This document shows, one piece after another, positions 7,072-43,621 of a stretch of 45,645 nt of DNA (position 1 is the first letter of the stretch; every line of letters starts with the position of its first letter). The position numbers were made by a program, and so were the translations under genes. Source of the stretch: a virus. The notes below the pieces were generated by a model. The model was not told the DNA's origin, did not search any database, and saw only the letters and a program-made list of their open reading frames with translations. The DNA lies in the IMG/VR virus record IMGVR_UViG_3300025087_000124, positions 1 through 45,645 of that record. One strand, written 5' to 3'.

Positions 7072-8036
7072 TCTGGATTATTCATACTAAATTTAACTGT
7101 CTGCTCTAACGCATTGTCAAAGTCGAATGGTGGTCTCCAACCCAACTCCAGTATCTTACTATAGTCTATTGAGTATCTTCTATCATACCCTGGTCTAATT
7201 GATTTGGCCTCTACCATTTCATACTTCAATTCTTGACCCATAATATCCGCTACCTTTTGAGCCATTTCTAAGTTACTCAATTCTACTTCGCTTCCTACAT
7301 TAATCTTCTTCTCATTCTGTTCTAGCATATACAATATAGCACTTGCACTATTCTTAGCGTATAACCAGTATCGGCTACCTACTACCCCGCCTGTATGATG
7401 TATAGGTACTTTTTCCCCTCTAAGTATATGTCCAACTATCTTAGGCACAAACTTTTCAGGATCTTGTCTTTCTCCGAACATATTCATAGTACGCATTATG
7501 GTAATCGGCAATCCATACGTTTCCATATAGGCATTCGCTATCATTTCTCCAGAAGCTTTCCCAGCACTGTAAGGATTTCTAGGATTTAAAGCGTCTGTCT
7601 CCTTAAACTTTGATCCGACTTCAGCGTCTCCGTATACCTCGTCTGTAGAATAGTAAATAAACCTCTTTAATCTAGTCTGATACTTCCTTGCGTAATCTAA
7701 CATCGAGATTGTAGACAAAGAATTGTTAACAAACACCTCTCTAGGTCTAGTAATAGAATCATCAACATGACTGTCCGCAGCTACGTGTACAATGTAATCA
7801 ACTTCCCCTATATGACGGTGTACAGAATCCAACGGGTCTATTAGATCGTGTCTGATAATCTGTACTCTTTTAGGTAGGTTGTAGCCCTCCACAATCGATT
7901 CTAAACGGTTCAAGTTACCCGCCCTACTCATTCGCACAAGGCACACAATTTCCCAATCAGTAGTATGCAAAAAGTACTCAAGTACATGAGCACCTACAAA
8001 CCCAGAAACTCCCGTTATTGCTACCCTTGTATTCAC
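7059..8036 (-). CDS. NDP-glucose 4,6-dehydratase-like protein (RmlB-like)
   Basis: A 325-residue extended SDR with a textbook dehydratase signature. It has GVSGFVG at 9-15, HVAADSHVDDSI at about 84-95 (compare HxAAxSHVDRS in RmlB), the catalytic T131-D132-E133 in STDEVYG, and Y156/K160 in NPYSAGK. The TDE triad is what distinguishes 4,6-dehydratases from epimerases. The product would be an NDP-4-keto-6-deoxyhexose, the substrate of the RfbH-type enzyme just upstream. The start is GTG at 8034-8036, preceded by a leader that repeats a sequence found 121 bases upstream. No nucleotidyltransferase is present, so the NDP-sugar probably comes from the host. Confidence 0.8.
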   Translation of the reverse strand: MNTRVAITGVSGFVGAHVLEYFLHTTDWEIVCLVRMSRAGNLNRLESIVEGYNLPKRVQIIRHDLIDPLDSVHRHIGEVDYIVHVAADSHVDDSITRPREVFVNNSLSTISMLDYARKYQTRLKRFIYYSTDEVYGDAEVGSKFKETDALNPRNPYSAGKASGEMIANAYMETYGLPITIMRTMNMFGERQDPEKFVPKIVGHILRGEKVPIHHTGGVVGSRYWLYAKNSASAILYMLEQNEKKINVGSEVELSNLEMAQKVADIMGQELKYEMVEAKSIRPGYDRRYSIDYSKILELGWRPPFDFDNALEQTVKFSMNNPEWVK

Positions 8037-8169
8037 GTAATGTTCAATTAATTTATACTACTCCCCTATTCAACCCCTCTCGCCACCCTATTTTCACAAA
8101 CCCTGTTAAATCAACGCTTTTCCCCTCCCCTACTGTGTGAAAAGCGGAGTGGGGGAGAGTATGTTCAAT
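8037..8169 (-). promoter_or_regulatory. Intergenic region with interleaved inverted repeats
   Basis: This 133-base gap is the longest inside the otherwise tightly packed sugar cluster. It holds two overlapping inverted repeats in the order A-B-A'-B'. A/A' is CGCTTTTC (8115-8122) with GAAAAGCG (8139-8146). B/B' is CTCCCCTACT (8125-8134) with AGTGGGGGAG (8148-8157), which matches except for one G-T pair. Both stems cannot form together comfortably because the crossing loops are only 1-4 bases, so they look mutually exclusive. The position between two sugar genes suggests a transcriptional or translational control element, or a remnant of insertion. No clear U-tract follows either hairpin. Confidence 0.5.
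8041..8058. repeat. Direct repeat copy 1 (18 bp, one mismatch to copy 2)
   Basis: TGTTCAATTAATTTATAC here and TGTTCAATTTATTTATAC at 8162-8179 differ at one base. This copy forms the leader of the dehydratase gene, in the place where a ribosome-binding site would be. Confidence 0.7.
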
Positions 8170-8179
8170 TTATTTATAC
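8162..8179. repeat. Direct repeat copy 2
   Basis: The second copy of the 18-bp repeat overlaps the stop codon of the RfbH-like gene. The two copies bracket the GC-richer segment with the interleaved inverted repeats, as if that segment had been inserted or duplicated between them. Confidence 0.7.
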
Positions 8180-9414
8180 CTTCCCAAGAACTCAAGTATC
8201 TTCTCCTTCATATACGCCCTCTGTTCTTCTTTTATACCAGGGTGTACCCCTATCCAGAAGCTATTGTCCATTATGTCATCACTTACACTTAGGTCGGGGT
8301 GTTTTCTGAATGCCCACTTGCCACCCCTAGAAAGTACGGGTTGTTTAGTAATGTTACCACAAAAGAAAGCCCTACTCCTGATACCCTGTTCATCTAGGAA
8401 CTGCTCAAACTCTCTTTTAGTAAACGGAGCTTTATCGTTTAGTTTTATAACATACCCGAAAGGACTCATTTCGGCACCGTCATACGCTAGTGTAGGTTCA
8501 AACCATTCCTTGTACTGACTGAACACCGCAGTTAGAAACTTGTGGTTAAATTGCCTGTCTCTAATAAATCCTGGTAGCCTTTTCATTTGCTCTACTCCAA
8601 TCGCAGCTTGTATCTGGCTCATTTTAAAATTAAACCCGAACTCCGTGTACGTGTTCTTATGGTCGTACCCCTTTGGTAGTTCACCGTGCTTTTGTCCGTA
8701 CCTAGCACCGCAAGTGTTGTCCTGCCCTGGAGGGCAATAGCAATCTCTACCCCAATTGATCATTGCATTTAATCCCCTTTGAAGCTGAAAGTTGTTTGTC
8801 ATTACAGCACCGCCTTCGCCTGTAGATATATGGTGTGCAGGATAAAAGGACAAAGTACTTAAATGACCAAAGCTACCAGTCTTTCTACCGTTCCACGTCC
8901 CGCCTAAGCAGTCGCAGTTATCCTCAATCAAGGTTATTCCTTCTTCTTCACAAATAGCCATTATCTCTTCCAAATTAAATGGGTTTCCCAAAGCGTGAGC
9001 CACCATGATAGCCTTTGTTTTATCGGTTATCATTTCCCTAACTTGTCCAGGGCTTATGTTCCAAGTATTCCTTTCCACATCAACAAACACAGGTATCGCA
9101 CCCGAATAGGCTATGGGACTTACGGTAGTTGGAAAACTTAATGCAGTGGTTATTACTTCGTCACCCTTGTTCAATCTTCTATTAACAGGAATGTAGTCGG
9201 TAGTTAGTGCCATTAAGGCTGCGAAGTTTGCACTCGTACCGCTGTTGACTAATTCAACGTGTTTCATGCCAATAAACCCACTCAAAGCCCTTTCAAACTC
9301 TTCAGTAGGTTCACCCTCGACATTCCACCATTGCTCGGCTGCTCTTTGTGCTGCTTCGACCTCTTCTCTGCCGTGTACAGGCGTTGAAGGATCAATTCGT
9401 ATTTGGCTACTCAT
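8170..9414 (-). CDS. rfbH: RfbH/E1-type NDP-4-keto-6-deoxyglucose 3-dehydrase (PMP, 2Fe-2S)
   Basis: A 414-residue DegT-fold protein. The pyridoxal lysine of aminotransferases is replaced by histidine: FYPAHHISTGEGGA, with H194 at the lysine position. The four iron-sulphur cysteines of the E1 family are present with the exact known spacing C-57x-C-1x-C-7x-C (C167, C225, C227, C235, in EDNCDC and GRDCYCPPGQDNTCG). The downstream GYDHKNTYTEFGFN block also matches RfbH. E1 removes the 3-hydroxyl of NDP-4-keto-6-deoxyhexose using PMP and electrons from a reductase (E3), and starts 3,6-dideoxyhexose synthesis. No E3 gene is visible in the window; the host or a generic reductase would have to supply electrons. 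The dehydratase gene follows directly. Confidence 0.9.
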   Translation of the reverse strand: MSSQIRIDPSTPVHGREEVEAAQRAAEQWWNVEGEPTEEFERALSGFIGMKHVELVNSGTSANFAALMALTTDYIPVNRRLNKGDEVITTALSFPTTVSPIAYSGAIPVFVDVERNTWNISPGQVREMITDKTKAIMVAHALGNPFNLEEIMAICEEEGITLIEDNCDCLGGTWNGRKTGSFGHLSTLSFYPAHHISTGEGGAVMTNNFQLQRGLNAMINWGRDCYCPPGQDNTCGARYGQKHGELPKGYDHKNTYTEFGFNFKMSQIQAAIGVEQMKRLPGFIRDRQFNHKFLTAVFSQYKEWFEPTLAYDGAEMSPFGYVIKLNDKAPFTKREFEQFLDEQGIRSRAFFCGNITKQPVLSRGGKWAFRKHPDLSVSDDIMDNSFWIGVHPGIKEEQRAYMKEKILEFLGRYK

Positions 9415-9417
9415 TTG

Positions 9418-10263
9418 TTACAAACTATCATAAAACTTAGAGAGAATCAATGACTCAATTTTTAGTAATTGCTCTTTCATTTCGTACTTTTTAACCTTTA
9501 GGTATCCACTCTCTATAATGTCCTTATAGCTGTCGTAATCCTTCAGTACAGCGTCCAGTTGTGTGGGCAAATCACTTAGCCTGTTCCAATATATGAACTG
9601 CCTGCCGTTCTCAAATCCTAGCTTCTCGATTAGGGAAGTTTGTAGTCTCTTCTGTAATAATAACGAGTTACTTCCCATTGCTTCAAAGAATCTATTGTTA
9701 AGTATAATGTCCCAAGGCTCTGTAGGTTGGTTAATAACTATTTTGGCGGAGCTCATGACCTCGGAATAGGTCTCCAAGTCTTCAATTCTGCCACAATAAC
9801 TATTATATCCCTTTAAAACTTCCCACAATCGTATTCTTTCCTGACTATTAGCGTTTCCTATCATAACAACGTCATACTTCTTTTCTATAGGCTTAAAGTA
9901 CTCCTCACGGTATGTAATCGGTACTAAGTAGCTTTCTATTCCGTTTAATTCGAGAAGCTTTGCTCCGTGTTCATAATTACTACTAATCACTAGTTCGCAC
10001 TTTCTAGCTAGGTTACAACCCCTATCAAGACCCCCTGGCATATGAGAATCCATTAGCCAACACACTTTTGGATACTTAATCTCTGGTATATTAGCGGTAA
10101 AGTCCTCGCTACAATCGACAAAGAAGTAAACCCCCTTCTTAACAGGTATTCTTTCGTTGCGGTCATAGGCTTCGACCTCGTGCCCAATCTGGCGTAAACC
10201 GTCTACAACCCACTGTCCCATAGACCCGTATTGTCCCAGGTACCCCACAACAATAAACTTCAT
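9418..10263 (-). CDS. Glycosyltransferase, CgeB/GT-B-like
   Basis: A 281-residue protein resembling the CgeB-type glycosyltransferases. The N-terminal half has MKFIVVGYLGQYGSMG and VCWLMDSHMPGG. The C-terminal half has DVVMIGNANSQERI and INQPTEPWDIILNNRFFEAM, the family's E-x-M region that marks the donor-binding domain (RFFEAMGS). It probably adds one sugar to the glycan built by this cluster. It overlaps the Nudix gene by an ATGA junction and lies 3 bases from the RfbH start. Confidence 0.7.
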   Translation of the reverse strand: MKFIVVGYLGQYGSMGQWVVDGLRQIGHEVEAYDRNERIPVKKGVYFFVDCSEDFTANIPEIKYPKVCWLMDSHMPGGLDRGCNLARKCELVISSNYEHGAKLLELNGIESYLVPITYREEYFKPIEKKYDVVMIGNANSQERIRLWEVLKGYNSYCGRIEDLETYSEVMSSAKIVINQPTEPWDIILNNRFFEAMGSNSLLLQKRLQTSLIEKLGFENGRQFIYWNRLSDLPTQLDAVLKDYDSYKDIIESGYLKVKKYEMKEQLLKIESLILSKFYDSL

Positions 10264-25961: not shown

Positions 25962-26468
25962 TTACTTTAATTTAGATAACCATTCTTTGTAGCACACATC
26001 CCAAAGCCCTTTGCTACCATAGTCGTTATATAGACACATATCTTCGTCATCGAATAACTTCTCTACTTCTTCTAATGCTTTTTTCCTCTCTCTTTCTAGT
26101 AGGGATTGAACTTTGTCTACAACTTCTAGCAATCCTTTGTTTGTTCGCAACTGTTCTCCAAATTTATTAACTAAATAGTTTGTAAAATCCTCCCTACTCC
26201 AATCTGCCCCATTCCAATCTTCTATATTAGTATCAACTTCGGGAGTATGGAGCTTCTTATACAGTCCTCTCGATAGTATAAAGTCCATGGTTTCCTCTGC
26301 GTGTTGAAAATCTCTATCACTTTCTATATTAGTATCTGGTTCAACTTCAAGTTCTTCTGACAGCACTTTTCCACAGTCTATACATTTAGTGATGTTTGGG
26401 TTTTTACCTTCCCCTGTCCAATACACTAGTGTTTGTGTGCATCTTAAATGTTTACATTCTTCTTTCAT
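25962..26468 (-). CDS. Zinc-ribbon hypothetical protein, paralogous to next gene
   Basis: A 168-residue protein with an N-terminal C-x4-C and a later C-x2-C (ECKHLRC and KCIDCGK), consistent with a zinc ribbon. It then has a linker containing EVEPDTNIE and a C-terminal helix LLERERKKALEEVEKLF. The neighbouring upstream gene (26471-27004) shares the linker (EVKPDTNME) and the terminal helix (LLLEERKKTLEEVLK), so the two seem to be duplicated parts with different N-terminal domains. Function unknown. Confidence 0.6.
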   Translation of the reverse strand: MKEECKHLRCTQTLVYWTGEGKNPNITKCIDCGKVLSEELEVEPDTNIESDRDFQHAEETMDFILSRGLYKKLHTPEVDTNIEDWNGADWSREDFTNYLVNKFGEQLRTNKGLLEVVDKVQSLLERERKKALEEVEKLFDDEDMCLYNDYGSKGLWDVCYKEWLSKLK

Positions 26469-26470
26469 TT

Positions 26471-27004
26471 CTATTTAGTCTTAAAATTAGATAGTTCTTT
26501 CTCAATATATCTTATATTTATTAAATTCAATTCCAAGTGTTCTGTGTTTTTGTGAGACATATTCTTTAACACCTCTTCTAATGTTTTCTTACGCTCCTCT
26601 AAAAGTAATTTATCTACTTCTGATTGAGTGTAGAGTTTCTCTACCAATTCTAATTCAACTTCTGTATATATTTGACCGCTTTCTTCACAATAATAAGTTA
26701 TCCCATCATCTGGCATTTCGTCTGCATCCATCTTTCTAACTTTAACATCTATTCCATTATCATTTACAGTTGCTCGTATATTATATTCTTCTTTCTTTTC
26801 CATATTAGTATCTGGTTTAACCTCAAAAACATCATTCAATAAGTCCGATACAAAATCATATAAATCATCATATATAACCTCTACCCCGTTATTATTCTTA
26901 TAGCTAATCTCTATACTATCCTCACTATCCATTCCATAACTAATTCTGCCTATTAGCGAATTGATTATCATATCAATTTTACTTTTCTTTACTTCTTCTT
27001 TCAT
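26471..27004 (-). CDS. Hypothetical protein, paralogous tail to 25962-26468
   Basis: A 177-residue acidic protein. It opens MKEEVKKSKIDMIINS and has VEVIYDDLYDFVSDLLNDV, then the shared EVKPDTNME linker. A beta-rich middle (YNIRATVNDNGIDVKVRK) is followed by the shared helix LLLEERKKTLEEVLKNM. It lacks the zinc ribbon of its neighbour. No function is assigned. Confidence 0.55.
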   Translation of the reverse strand: MKEEVKKSKIDMIINSLIGRISYGMDSEDSIEISYKNNNGVEVIYDDLYDFVSDLLNDVFEVKPDTNMEKKEEYNIRATVNDNGIDVKVRKMDADEMPDDGITYYCEESGQIYTEVELELVEKLYTQSEVDKLLLEERKKTLEEVLKNMSHKNTEHLELNLINIRYIEKELSNFKTK

Positions 27005-27010
27005 TTCTAT

Positions 27011-27613
27011 TTAGTCTTTAGATTTTAGATACTTACTCACTGCACTAAAAAACCAGTTATAATCAGTTCCTTTAGGATACTTTTTTCTTACTGCTTTCTT
27101 AAATTCACTTAATGTCCCTCTAAAGCACCCTGCACACACCATACCGTCTGATTTAGTGATAGTTATATATCTATTTTCTCCAAGAGGACCAATCTGCAAG
27201 CATCCTTTAGTCGTTTTAATAACAGCATCACCATAGACCCTAGCCTTACCAGAGACCTCAGCATTACCAGAGACCCTAGCCTTACCAGAGACCTCAGCAT
27301 CACCATAGACCTCAGCATTACCATAGACCCTAGCATAACCATAGACCTCAGCATTACCATAGACCCTAGCATAACCATAGACCCAAGCATTACCAGAGAC
27401 CCCAGCATAACCATAGACCTCAGCATTACCAGAGACCCCAGCATAACCATAGACCCAAGCATTACCATCTTCCGAAAGGTTCTCCTTTTTCTCTATATAA
27501 CCACCCTTATCTCCTTTGCTTACATTCCCGAAATCCATAAGTGCTTGAATACGGTAGAGTTTCAGTTCTCCATACTCTTTGTATTCATTTTTTAATAATT
27601 TGTATTTCTTCAT
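27011..27613 (-). CDS. Hexapeptide-repeat beta-helix protein
   Basis: A 200-residue protein. The first ~45 residues (LKLYRIQALMDFGNVSKGDKGGYIEKKENLS) match the start of a family of phage and bacterial proteins that I recognise by this opening. Residues about 50-132 are thirteen to fourteen six-residue units of the form G-[NYDK]-A-x-V-[YS], the pattern of a left-handed beta helix. A C-terminal cap has a Cys pair (MVCAGCFRG) and a basic end. Repeats at DNA level are 18 bp and nearly identical, so copy number may vary between isolates. A structural or surface-protein role is possible; function is not established. Confidence 0.75.
   Translation of the reverse strand: MKKYKLLKNEYKEYGELKLYRIQALMDFGNVSKGDKGGYIEKKENLSEDGNAWVYGYAGVSGNAEVYGYAGVSGNAWVYGYARVYGNAEVYGYARVYGNAEVYGDAEVSGKARVSGNAEVSGKARVYGDAVIKTTKGCLQIGPLGENRYITITKSDGMVCAGCFRGTLSEFKKAVRKKYPKGTDYNWFFSAVSKYLKSKD
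27218..27466. repeat. 18-bp tandem repeats inside the beta-helix gene
   Basis: About fourteen copies of an 18-bp unit (on the plus strand variants of CCATAGACCTCAGCATTA) are arranged head to tail. They encode the G-x-A-x-V-x units. The near identity of units suggests recent expansion or contraction by slippage or recombination. Confidence 0.85.
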
Positions 27614-27637
27614 ATGCTTATACCCTACTTGTTAAAA

Positions 27638-27856
27638 TTAAACTAACAATATCTTTAATACAATTACAAACACTACACAAAACAAAACTCCTACCCATAT
27701 TCCATTTATCATTCCCCTTGCATATTCAGTTTCTGTCTTTTCACCTAATTGTAATACCCTATCTTCTAATTCTCTTTTAGAGTACTTTCTAGGTTCAGAT
27801 GTTGTTGCAAAATAATATGTTCCTCTATCAGTTAGCTCTCTATAATTTGGTGTCAT
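27638..27856 (-). CDS. Small membrane protein
   Basis: A 72-residue protein with a hydrophilic N-terminal region (KYSKRELEDRVLQLGEK) and one strong C-terminal membrane helix (GIWVGVLFCVVFVIVLKILLV). No family is recognised. It might sit in the host inner membrane; the rest is unknown. Confidence 0.55.
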   Translation of the reverse strand: MTPNYRELTDRGTYYFATTSEPRKYSKRELEDRVLQLGEKTETEYARGMINGIWVGVLFCVVFVIVLKILLV

Positions 27857-27879
27857 CTCTTACTATAGTTATAATTTAA

Positions 27880-28143
27880 TTAGGTTGAAATAGGAATGAT
27901 GACGCATCTGAAACGACCTTCTGTTGGAAAAGCTTTGCCACAATCTTCGCAATACGGCATAGAATAATTTTTATTCTTTCCTCCTATTCTTTCCCCGTCA
28001 ACAAGTGCGTATTGTTTATTCCTATGCTGACATACTTCCCTTTTGATTGAAGGTTTTACTTTGATACCGAAAGTCTTCGCACTCTCCCAAATTTTCAAAT
28101 ACCCGTTTACTGTCTTTTCTATTTTCTTTACTGATGCTTCCAT
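27880..28143 (-). CDS. Small zinc-finger hypothetical protein
   Basis: An 87-residue protein with a CQHRN segment and a later YCEDCGKAFP segment, which gives a likely zinc-binding set (C, H, C, C). It is helical at the N-terminus (VKKIEKTVNGYLKIWESAK). No function is assigned. Confidence 0.55.
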   Translation of the reverse strand: MEASVKKIEKTVNGYLKIWESAKTFGIKVKPSIKREVCQHRNKQYALVDGERIGGKNKNYSMPYCEDCGKAFPTEGRFRCVIIPIST

Positions 28144-28149
28144 AGTTAG

Positions 28150-28332
28150 TTAGATTTTTAATTTTAAAACTTCGACCAAATCCTCTAAGAACTCTAGTTC
28201 GTGATTAAGTGTTGCTACCTGACCGTCTCTAAATAAACTACCACCAATGCCAAGCGCCATCTCCTTCAAATCTTTTACTAGCCTTTTTACCATTTTAATT
28301 CTACCTTCAACTAACCCTATTACTTTTTCCAT
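28150..28332 (-). CDS. Small coiled-coil protein
   Basis: A 60-residue protein with helices (GLVEGRIKMVKRLVKDLKEM and LNHELEFLEDLVEVLKLK). It is the first gene after the structured intergenic RNA, whose end lies 29 bases before its start. No family is recognised. Confidence 0.5.
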   Translation of the reverse strand: MEKVIGLVEGRIKMVKRLVKDLKEMALGIGGSLFRDGQVATLNHELEFLEDLVEVLKLKI

Positions 28333-28361
28333 TTTAAGTATATCGATAAATTTAAATTAAC

Positions 28362-28534
28362 TAACAGTAGGGAGCAACCTAGGGTCGAACCTCAGAGTCT
28401 CCTTCGATATTTACGGATTACCCGCCCACTCACCCCGAAGGGCTTTCGGTTTACGGCTATTTCCCTGCACTCCCTGTTGCTACTAGGATTCAATCCATTC
28501 GCCTCTCGGTACTGTAGCCAACCCCCTACTGTTA
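28362..28534 (-). ncRNA. Putative structured RNA, closed by an 11-bp helix
   Basis: This intergenic element is richer in G+C than its surroundings. The ends form a perfect 11-bp inverted repeat (28362-28372 TAACAGTAGGG with 28524-28534 CCCTACTGTTA). Inside, read as minus-strand RNA, are an 8-bp helix with one bulged G (28514-28522 with 28476-28483), a cUUCGg hairpin (28440-28443 with 28432-28435), and a 5-bp UCGAA/UUCGA helix (28403-28407 with 28385-28389). An alternative pairing, AGCAAC (28373-28378) with GTTGCT (28476-28481), would extend the closing helix. It contains a GGTTCGACCC segment resembling a tRNA T-loop, but no cloverleaf fits. No ORF of useful size is present. It lies between the glucosaminidase gene and the 60-residue gene. 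It could be a regulatory leader, an independent small RNA, or a DNA-level element. Confidence 0.6.
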
Positions 28535-28539
28535 ATCAA

Positions 28540-29280
28540 TTATTTAAAAGATCCAATTATACTATTAACCCCTATTACCCATTCTTTGTGGAAATTATAA
28601 CCCCTACTTGCCATGTCCTGTGCAGTGGTCTTTCCATAACCCTGTCTCTTATAAGCATCTAATATCTTCTCAGTGGTTTCTTTAAAAGAACCCTCATAAT
28701 TTCCAACCTTTCCGCTATCAGTGTACCCATATCCAAAACAGTTGCCCTTGTTCATACAATAATAGCTTTTGCCCCAACCCGATTCTTTAGCCATAACCGC
28801 AAGTACCAACTTAGCGTTCAAATTCCTTTTCTTTGCCTCACTGTATACAAATGCTATCTTAGATCTACCAAAGGGGCTTCCTGCCCTACCGTAGCCCTCT
28901 AGAATTGATCTTAGATCGCTATCAGATTTGCCAACCTTAGAAACCAACTCTTTCTTGCTAACAATCTCATTCTTACCCTCAATAACACCATCCGAAACCC
29001 TGCCGACTCTAAACGGTTCTTCATTACTTGTAATCTGTGGCTTGAGGTAACTGTTGATTTTTTCGTCAACAATATCTCGTTTAAACCCCTGCACCTCTTT
29101 TTGAGATTTAGATATCTCCTCATAATACCCATATATTGTCCTTGCATGACTGTATGAAAATAAAATTATTCCTAAAGTAACAACTAACACTATCCTACTT
29201 GCCTTTTCAAAACTTATCTCACCATCCTTTATGTTTATAATCTTCACTCTAGCAGTACTTAATTTATATCTTACCCCCAT
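28540..29280 (-). CDS. Membrane-anchored glucosaminidase/lysozyme-like hydrolase
   Basis: A 246-residue protein with one N-terminal membrane segment (residues about 28-45, IVLVVTLGIILFSY), then a linker, and a C-terminal muramidase-type domain: LNAKLVLAVMAKESGWGKSYY, with E166 as the probable catalytic glutamate, then NKGNCFGYGYTDSG and an ending VNSIIGSF. This is the pattern of bacterial N-acetylglucosaminidases and transglycosylases that cut peptidoglycan glycan. It is not in the lysis cassette, which lies some 5 kb away, so it may serve DNA entry, host wall remodelling, or auxiliary lysis. Confidence 0.75.
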   Translation of the reverse strand: MGVRYKLSTARVKIINIKDGEISFEKASRIVLVVTLGIILFSYSHARTIYGYYEEISKSQKEVQGFKRDIVDEKINSYLKPQITSNEEPFRVGRVSDGVIEGKNEIVSKKELVSKVGKSDSDLRSILEGYGRAGSPFGRSKIAFVYSEAKKRNLNAKLVLAVMAKESGWGKSYYCMNKGNCFGYGYTDSGKVGNYEGSFKETTEKILDAYKRQGYGKTTAQDMASRGYNFHKEWVIGVNSIIGSFK

Positions 29281-29659: not shown

Positions 29660-30259
29660 TTATATAAAATTGCTCATATTAACTCCATCCACCTTCATTA
29701 AATTTTTTAGCCTGTGTAACCCACGATCTTCTATTTGCCTTACTCTTTCCCTTGTAACTCCAAACTCTTTAGCAACATCCTCAAGTGTTCTGGTTACTCC
29801 GTCCTGCATACCAAACCTCAAAGATAGCACCGCTTTTTCTCTGGTTTGCAATTGGTCAATATACTTATCTACCAACATTTTAGACCCCTCATTGCGATCA
29901 ATTGATTCTATATCCTCTCCATTTGAAAGTAGCAAACTCTCGCTTGACTTCAATGTAAGTGGAGTTATATCAAAAAACACCTCAGATTTAATACCCTTAA
30001 CCTTGTCAACCACCCTTTGGTACAAATCCATTGGAAATATATCCTCTACCGAAACCTCTAGCATATCAGCAATACGGCCTGCCTCATCAGGGGTTGGCAC
30101 TCGTTTTAAGGACTCAAACTCCCCTATTTTTACAATACTCATACCGCAGGCCTCAGACAGTTCCTTTTGAGACATACCAAGCTGTATCCTAACTTTTCTC
30201 ATAGAGGCGTTATATAGACGCCTTTTGATACCGACTTGTAGCTTCTGGTCAATTTCCAT
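29660..30259 (-). CDS. XRE-type HTH fused to sigma-70 region 4
   Basis: A 199-residue protein with two DNA-binding parts. Residues about 20-75 are an XRE helix-turn-helix (VRIQLGMSQKELSEACGM, then VPTPDEAGRIADMLEVSVEDIF). Residues about 133-188 match sigma-70 region 4 (REKAVLSLRFGM, then TLEDVAKEFGVTRERVRQIE, the -35-binding helix-turn-helix). Sigma regions 2 and 3 are absent, so it is not a complete sigma factor. It could bind RNA polymerase beta-flap through region 4 while the XRE part selects phage promoters, redirecting host transcription. That is inference; the two domains are clear. Confidence 0.8.
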   Translation of the reverse strand: MEIDQKLQVGIKRRLYNASMRKVRIQLGMSQKELSEACGMSIVKIGEFESLKRVPTPDEAGRIADMLEVSVEDIFPMDLYQRVVDKVKGIKSEVFFDITPLTLKSSESLLLSNGEDIESIDRNEGSKMLVDKYIDQLQTREKAVLSLRFGMQDGVTRTLEDVAKEFGVTRERVRQIEDRGLHRLKNLMKVDGVNMSNFI

Positions 30260-34447: not shown

Positions 34448-35179
34448 TTATTCCTTTACTGGAAACAATCTATTAAGAATGTCTACAATAAAAGCCCACC
34501 TCTCATAGTCTTTCAATCGACTATTTAGGTTTTCAATGTTCAGTGACTTGGCCTTTAATGCCAAATCTCTGTTGTTTAATTCTATGGTAAGTTGTTCTAT
34601 CTTAGCTAACTCCTCACTACAATCGTTTGTGACGGGCTCTACGGGGTCTGGAACGGGCGTTGGGATAGGAATTGGTACAACGACAGGTGGTACTACCACG
34701 GGTGGTACAGGTTTGCTCATTACATAACCTTTAGGAATCAGTTTGTCAGGGTCTTTAAGCCAATCATTAGGATATAACCCTTTAGAAGTAAAGAACCTTA
34801 AAACATCAACTGGTTTACCTCTGTTATCTAGTATAAAAAAATGAATGTGCGAAGGAACTCCGCTTGGGTTTGATTTGGCAATATCTCCAATATTACCACC
34901 CTGCTTAGTTTGAAAACCAACAACAATCTTTACATTAATTTCACAATGTACAAAAAACATTCTATACCCGCCAGAAATAGTAAAAATAAAGTACGGGTCT
35001 ATTTTCTTACCAACTTTAACTGCTTTCTGAATGTATGTTATCGTTCCTTTAAGTGGTGCGTGTATTCTCCAATCTGTAAATCCTCTGGGTGATAAGTCTA
35101 TAGCATCTTGTCCTTGATTGGGAATACTGTGTTTCCATTGGGTAACTGTCAGTTTCTTTACACAAGGTTTTATTGCCAT
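34448..35179 (-). CDS. M23-type peptidase with proline-rich linker and coiled-coil end (endolysin candidate)
   Basis: A 243-residue protein. Residues about 15-130 resemble the LytM/M23 zinc peptidase fold: NQGQDAIDL (21-29), HCE (H78) and PSHIHF (H111, H113, the HxH motif). At the first ligand position the usual His of HxGxD reads N21 (NQGQD), so zinc binding may be changed. A proline/valine-rich linker (VPPVVVPPVVVPIPIP) covers about 155-180, then a coiled coil (KIEQLTIELNNRDLALK) ends the protein. It probably cuts peptidoglycan peptide bonds and lies beside the holin-like genes. Confidence 0.6.
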   Translation of the reverse strand: MAIKPCVKKLTVTQWKHSIPNQGQDAIDLSPRGFTDWRIHAPLKGTITYIQKAVKVGKKIDPYFIFTISGGYRMFFVHCEINVKIVVGFQTKQGGNIGDIAKSNPSGVPSHIHFFILDNRGKPVDVLRFFTSKGLYPNDWLKDPDKLIPKGYVMSKPVPPVVVPPVVVPIPIPTPVPDPVEPVTNDCSEELAKIEQLTIELNNRDLALKAKSLNIENLNSRLKDYERWAFIVDILNRLFPVKE

Positions 35180-43147: not shown

Positions 43148-43621
43148 TTAAATTATACTTTGGTCTCCTATAGAGTTCTGTCTTAGCGTTAAGGTCGCTA
43201 CAACTATTCCCTCTTTATTAAACCTATTGTCACTCCAATTTATAGTCATTGATGGCTGATTAATTCCATAACTTCTAAAATTGTTTCTAACCACATACAC
43301 AATACTGTTTGTCAAAAGGTTGTTGTTAGCGTCCTTGCCTCTCATTACCCTAGTTAAAAACTCTACATCACCCGATTGACTAGCGTTCTGGTACACAGAA
43401 GTCTTAAAGCTCTTAACTAGAATAATCTCTATCGTGTCTTCGTCTTGATCCAACACCCCCGTAGCAATAGGTTTTATTTCTGTACTTACTGGATTAACGA
43501 TCACCATACCCCCCAGAGTATCACCGAGTTCTAAAGGTCGCCCGTACATATAGGTTTGAACATCATTCTTACTTATAACCCCTCTTAAATCTTCAATTAT
43601 CTTTGGTATTGCGTAATTCAT
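43148..43621 (-). CDS. Tail terminator-like protein
   Basis: A 157-residue protein (MNYAIPKIIEDLRGVISKN at the start) with alternating strands (VVRNNFRSYGIN, then TINWSDNRFNKEGIVVATLTLRQ). It lies between the gpG/HK97 gp10-like gene and the tail tube gene, the usual slot for a tail terminator or a neck protein. Sequence is not distinctive; the call rests on synteny. Confidence 0.5.
   Translation of the reverse strand: MNYAIPKIIEDLRGVISKNDVQTYMYGRPLELGDTLGGMVIVNPVSTEIKPIATGVLDQDEDTIEIILVKSFKTSVYQNASQSGDVEFLTRVMRGKDANNNLLTNSIVYVVRNNFRSYGINQPSMTINWSDNRFNKEGIVVATLTLRQNSIGDQSII

Follow-up and report, generated by a model that had tools for sequence, protein, structure and literature searches.

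An RNA element of 187 nt, here called RNA1, was located between the lysis genes and an operon of small genes in a tailed phage, and it is probably a real, previously undescribed viral RNA. It is read as a structured RNA because the departures of its closing helix from Watson-Crick pairing are G-U only, because a relative with 99.5% identity lies between different genes in a second phage, and because it matches no known family. RNA1 is quite probably a functional RNA of some kind; the full account preferred here, held tentatively, is that of a structured phage RNA which is cut from a polycistronic transcript and acts in trans. Few phage RNAs beyond tRNAs are known, several of them without known function; RNA1 is a compact candidate, its bounds are clear, and another phage carries a relative. 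Should it work in trans, it would represent a novel means by which phages deal with the host.

Position and bounds of the element

The window, i.e. the whole stretch of DNA that was analysed, is a tailed-phage contig of 45,645 nt, in which the terminase large subunit was assigned to PHROG 38 (E 5.9e-90) and portal-like and tape-measure proteins are also encoded, the similarity of the tape-measure protein to a Cellulophaga phage being limited to 58 residues. All genes around the element are read from the minus strand, and RNA1 is read on this strand from 28541 to 28355 (Table 1). Four gaps on the gene strand measure at least 120 nt; that holding RNA1 (28333-28539, 207 nt) exceeds the others in length and contains no ORF of at least 35 aa on the gene strand. 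The stop codon of the lysis gene overlaps the first two bases of RNA1, and the ATG of the downstream gene lies 22 nt past its end. A first-pass annotation, made from the sequence alone, had described positions 28362-28534 as a GC-rich, non-coding segment, and this description was borne out by a GC content of 0.520 in the longest, ORF-free gap. The same or a higher GC content was reached in 80 of the 45,472 segments of 173 nt; the remainder of these lie near 16.0 kb and at 37.1-37.4 kb and fall within coding DNA.

Table 1. Features in and around RNA1 (positions in the window; probabilities are base-pairing probabilities)
Feature	Position	Strand	Remarks
Upstream gene, glucosaminidase-domain protein (lysis)	28540..29280	minus	PF01832, E 3.6e-8
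TATAAT box	28556..28561	minus	just upstream of RNA1; no good -35; absent there in G001; weak
RNA1, whole element	28355..28541	minus	187 nt, ends set by closing helix
Block common to window and G001	28350..28541	minus	192 nt, 99.5%, one mismatch
P1 5' arm	28521..28541	minus	21-bp closing helix: 17 Watson-Crick, 4 G-U, 0 A-C
P2 5' arm, UGGCUA	28515..28520	minus	predicted in fold B; probability about 0.2 in window, about 0.8 in G001 allele
Small hairpin GGAU-UGA-AUCC	28486..28496	minus	probability 0.49-0.63, window allele
P2 3' arm	28454..28459	minus	contains sole variable base 28454: G in window, A in G001
P4 arm, cUUCGg loop	28426..28449	minus	3 + 4 pairs; probability 0.88-0.95
P5 hairpin GCGG-GUAAU-CCGU	28413..28425	minus	probability 0.3 in window, 0.9 in G001
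P7 bulged helix	28376..28399	minus	ends in T-loop-like GGUUCGACC; probability about 0.1 in window, 0.3 in G001; weak
P1 3' arm	28355..28375	minus	21-bp closing helix
Downstream gene, 60-aa protein without known family	28150..28332	minus	run of small genes begins

The closing helix

The closing helix TAACAGTAGGG/CCCTACTGTTA that had been noted at first is present on the minus strand; its 11 bp belong to a longer helix of 21 uninterrupted pairs with G-U allowed (P1), so that the element extends over 28355-28541. One helix alone on the minus strand of the window is longer than P1. It has 22 uninterrupted pairs, G-U allowed, at 43426/43344, lies inside the ORF 43148-43621 and is probably due to chance; as a helix of this length is also found in a coding gene, helix length by itself is no proof. 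On the plus strand of the window no helix longer than 16 bp was found. The occurrence of P1 at its place is far beyond chance: in dinucleotide shuffles of the gap the longest helix had 18 bp and in shuffles of the arms only 17 bp, and 21 bp were reached in none of 1500 shuffles in either case.

All four non-Watson-Crick pairs of P1 are G-U on the gene strand and none is A-C, although A-C steps were equally allowed. On the opposite strand each of these G-U pairs becomes an A-C mismatch, so that the gene strand forms the better helix. This strand preference favours selection of P1 as RNA, but is suggestive only, as the same outcome would be obtained by coin tossing in one of 16 trials.

A relative between different genes in a second phage

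Scans of viral and genome contigs yielded one true relative, the phage contig IMGVR_UViG_3300002097_000014 (G001, 41,217 bases), whose copy is identical to RNA1 at 186 of the 187 positions. RNA1 is present once in each of the two genomes. The block of identity has its left limit at precisely the base with which P1 opens and runs 5 nt beyond the last base of P1, on both sides the flanks of the block do not align, and the proteins encoded up- and downstream are unrelated between the two phages. In both phages RNA1 is preceded by a stop codon and followed, after 16-22 nt, by the ATG of another gene, and the slot has a common order of RNA1, shared portions of the small-gene operon (92.5% identity over 161 nt and 90% over 59 nt), an HNH/NinG-like gene and the terminase gene. 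Longer pieces of DNA shared elsewhere by the two phages are just 80-93% identical, with 80-86% in the endolysin region. Among the long stretches common to this pair of genomes RNA1 is thus the best kept, and it is kept as a helix-bounded unit.

A recent, functionless exchange of DNA between co-occurring phages would also give such a block, and the two contigs are mosaic relatives with identity high enough to make a swap plausible. This explanation is regarded as very improbable, because the block matches the helix to the base on the left and within 5 nt on the right, and because P1 is far beyond chance.

It is quite improbable, if less so than a mere exchange, that the conserved entity is an element of the DNA itself, such as a recombination joint, a site of packaging or of replication, or a small mobile element whose termini are inverted repeats of 21 bp. 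For such an element one would expect mosaic phages to share a block bounded by the helix, other intergenic stop/start joints are likewise identical in both phages (38, 30, 26 and 23 nt at 100%), RNA1 is immediately flanked on either side by TAAAT (5 nt) in the window, and the G001 contig breaks inside RNA1. Against it, wherever the inverted repeat is imperfect the pair is G-U on one and the same strand, which DNA would not favour, there is one copy per genome, and no direct repeat flanks RNA1 in G001 (TTTAC versus TAAAT). A transposable element or MITE was rejected, as there is a single copy per genome and a flanking direct repeat at one of the two loci.

The contig break was accounted for by the arithmetic of assembly. 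The two ends of G001 have in common 98 nt that lie within the element, the contig ending at element position 189 and starting at position 92, and the alleles of the window and G001 differ at positions 88 and 193 and are identical between these. For an assembler that stops at a second allele, 88+k-1=189 and 193-k+1=92 both give k=102, so that a window-like allele in the same sample would cause the break and a physical genome end is not needed to explain it. We infer that the G001 assembly may be circular and complete, and that a phage carrying the allele and right flank of the window may have lived alongside it.

The identical stop/start joints were found at 27609-27646, 27853-27882, 26460-26485 and 26996-27018 of the window, the genes beside them differing between the phages; recombination joints and translation signals are suggested as alternative explanations of them.

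Interior folds

On the minus strand the folding energy of the 173 nt first delimited (28362-28534) was unremarkable, at z -0.98 with 31 of 200 shuffles equally good; the plus strand gave z -1.79 (12 of 200). The full 187 nt gave z -2.77, with 2 of 500 shuffles as good, and the inner 145 nt gave z +1.03, with 425 of 500 as good. As this inner part shows no advantage in folding over its shuffles, the inner helices of the first-pass annotation are not established by energy, which stands at chance level. The cUUCGg hairpin and the T-loop-like GGTTCGACCC that it had listed are both present on the minus (gene) strand.

For the window allele, a rod-like fold A (-63.0 kcal/mol) and a multibranched fold B (-62.7 kcal/mol) were computed; in the G001 allele fold A is at -58.2 kcal/mol and fold B is best at -63.6 kcal/mol. 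The sole substitution, at position 88, turns the U22-G88 pair of P2 (fold B) into U22-A88 and disrupts G88-C118 in fold A, at a cost to the latter of 4.8 kcal/mol. The comparison of RNA1 with its relative consists of two sequences with one difference, which is compatible with fold B only. The change is compatible with P2 but not compensatory, and 61 of the 102 possible transitions at paired positions would likewise retain a pair. It favours fold B and speaks against two conserved states, though it is a single base; the two-state RNA that had been proposed is not supported, one of the states being lost in G001. The two copies, being nearly identical, give no covariation support for the fold.

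6S RNAs are about as long as RNA1, and an RNA of the 6S type, which would mimic an open promoter and thereby hold RNA polymerase of the host, would agree with the length and with the rod-like minimum-energy fold of the window allele. This is extremely unlikely, given that no 6S family of Rfam was matched even at E 10 and that the rod-like fold is lost in the G001 allele.

Searches for known families and further copies

ARAGORN found no tRNA or tmRNA gene in the window, in agreement with the initial statement that no tRNA or tmRNA fold fits, and no tRNA was found in the G001 pieces; at lowered thresholds dozens of matches appeared everywhere in both phages and were discarded as chance noise. 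The Rfam scan that had been proposed as a check, a match in which would have spoken against a new RNA, gave none of 4227 families of Rfam 15 at the gathering score, a collection that includes 6S, GOLLD, ROOL, phage pRNA, abiF and introns. With E up to 10 the lone match was PhotoRC-I (E 3.4), which scored 10.7 bits where the cut-off is 45 and is at chance level.

Searching RNA1 by blastn against 50,697 phage records gave two weak chance matches alone, and against 72,556 plasmids none. With a covariance model of both copies, 10 sources and 8 records yielded no further one, the next match having an E value of 0.84. Matches of 17 to 19 bases in L028, L029 and L030 were attributed to chance, as the seed alone matches and the surroundings do not align, and of 18 contigs with a degenerate 5' pattern all but L014 were rejected. 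Searches with the lysis protein and with the sigma-like protein of the window gave no relative, the terminase search gave six loci, none with RNA1 in the DNA or records searched, and two short proteins common to both phages retrieved G001 alone. In a literature search with thin coverage of subscription journals no description of RNA1 was found. The endolysin-like proteins at 34448-34630 of the window and 6347-6529 of L014 share a C-terminal end of 60 aa with 85% identity and are otherwise dissimilar.

RNA1 has the general features of phage structured non-coding RNAs, being conserved, non-coding and closed by a helix beyond chance on the gene strand, and with its unusual slot and stalk it is a candidate for a new family of these. 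RNA C and RNA D of phage T4 are short stable RNAs without known function and lie within the T4 tRNA cluster; RNA1 differs from them in setting, as there is no such cluster around it. The packaging RNA of the phi29 type is similar in length to RNA1, but RNA1 has no Rfam match and the window encodes an ordinary terminase large subunit and not a phi29-type motor. GOLLD and ROOL are, like RNA1, structured non-coding RNAs of phages or prophages without known function; they often lie near tRNA islands and have covariation-based folds, GOLLD often exceeding 800 nt (PMC12286853). Both are far longer than RNA1, which with 187 nt, no tRNA in the window and no Rfam match has neither the length of several hundred nt nor the tRNA island expected of a member. 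AbiF RNA and the type III antitoxins are prophage-borne structured RNAs which, like RNA1, lie beside genes; AbiF RNA is described as going with an Abi_2 toxin gene and as active both in cis and in trans (PMC12373285). Among the scanned neighbours of RNA1, neither Abi_2 nor another known defence family was detected, though a toxin of a novel kind may be encoded there.

Transcriptional context and proposed mode of action

Promoter-like sites numbered 8 against 9.6 expected, none of them convincing, and no terminator was found. A Shine-Dalgarno-like motif was present in 3 of 52 hand-picked gene starts of the window; the host probably does not rely on Shine-Dalgarno sequences. Complementarity of RNA1 to transcripts of its own phage reached a longest run of 11, and shuffles mostly gave 10-11, i.e. 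the level of chance. The window also encodes, at 29660-30259, an unusual regulator in which a Cro/C1-type HTH is fused to sigma-70 region 4.

Directly observed for RNA1 are the stalk, wobble pairs in it that prefer one strand, the helix-bounded conservation and the changed neighbour genes. RNase III cuts stalks around rRNA precursors, and phage T7 has intercistronic RNase III sites; like P1, these are long imperfect helices closing a segment between cistrons, with the difference that cutting of P1 is postulated and that the 145 nt within P1 correspond neither to rRNA nor to a simple hairpin. By analogy with the rRNA precursors, RNA1 would be transcribed on the gene strand by readthrough from the lysis gene into the small-gene operon, and host RNase III or a like enzyme would cut the 21-bp stalk, freeing a compact GC-rich RNA with a multibranched inner fold of P2, P4, P5 and P7. 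The freed RNA would then act in trans on a host partner met by both phages, a proposal that draws on the changed neighbours in two genomes.

The main rival to a trans-acting RNA is control of the operon in cis, by an intercistronic element that governs processing, stability or translation of the downstream mRNA. It is considered somewhat unlikely. The placement from stop codon to ATG in both phages and the lack of a detected terminator agree with it, a structure near the start could matter where so few starts have a Shine-Dalgarno-like motif, and it matches the operon leader that had initially been named beside a phage small RNA. Of these two early suggestions the structured small RNA fits best, and the leader loses weight, as RNA1 precedes a different gene in each of the two phages. 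Up- as well as downstream genes have changed while RNA1 is 99.5% identical, and a plain processing hairpin would need no 145 conserved inner bases.

Further non-coding elements in the slot of the relative

In G001 (L031), RNA1 and one short gene are followed by 459 non-coding nt at 392-850, which may be counted as two or three strongly folded elements. Positions 392-620 gave z -4.45 and positions 615-828 gave z -4.53, with none of 200 shuffles as good in either case; the former contain a 13-bp helix (1 G-U, 0 A-C) and the latter are closed by 22 pairs (6 G-U, 0 A-C), helices on the other strand having at most 18 bp. Nothing beyond short words is common to these elements and RNA1, and no Rfam family was matched (best E 0.44, below the cut-off). 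The joint at 829-863 of G001 is similar to that by which RNA1 is immediately followed in the window (81.6% over 38 nt, E 0.037), a weak match that looks like the trace of cassettes gained and lost in one slot.

Taken further, the slot before the small-gene operon might be an RNA island, holding helix-closed RNA cassettes that are unrelated in sequence and aimed at host partners, for example defence systems or ribosomes. Such cassettes, one in the window and several in G001, would be gained and lost by phages that probably have a common host. This extended reading is unlikely as a whole; if true, phages would have accessory RNA cassettes comparable to their accessory protein cassettes. The slot between lysis genes and small-gene operon is in any case a place in which to seek further RNAs.

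Elsewhere in G001 (L031), about 2 kb at 7940-9880 are without an ORF of at least 90 aa and contain several hairpins and TGGTATAAT promoter-like boxes; no Rfam match was obtained there at E up to 2, and the region possibly holds more non-coding RNAs. Repeated ATGGTATAATAT boxes, not seen in the window, occur at 8038, 9201, 14779, 20580, 28012 and 30320 of G001, and with their extended -10 motif they look like a family of phage promoters.
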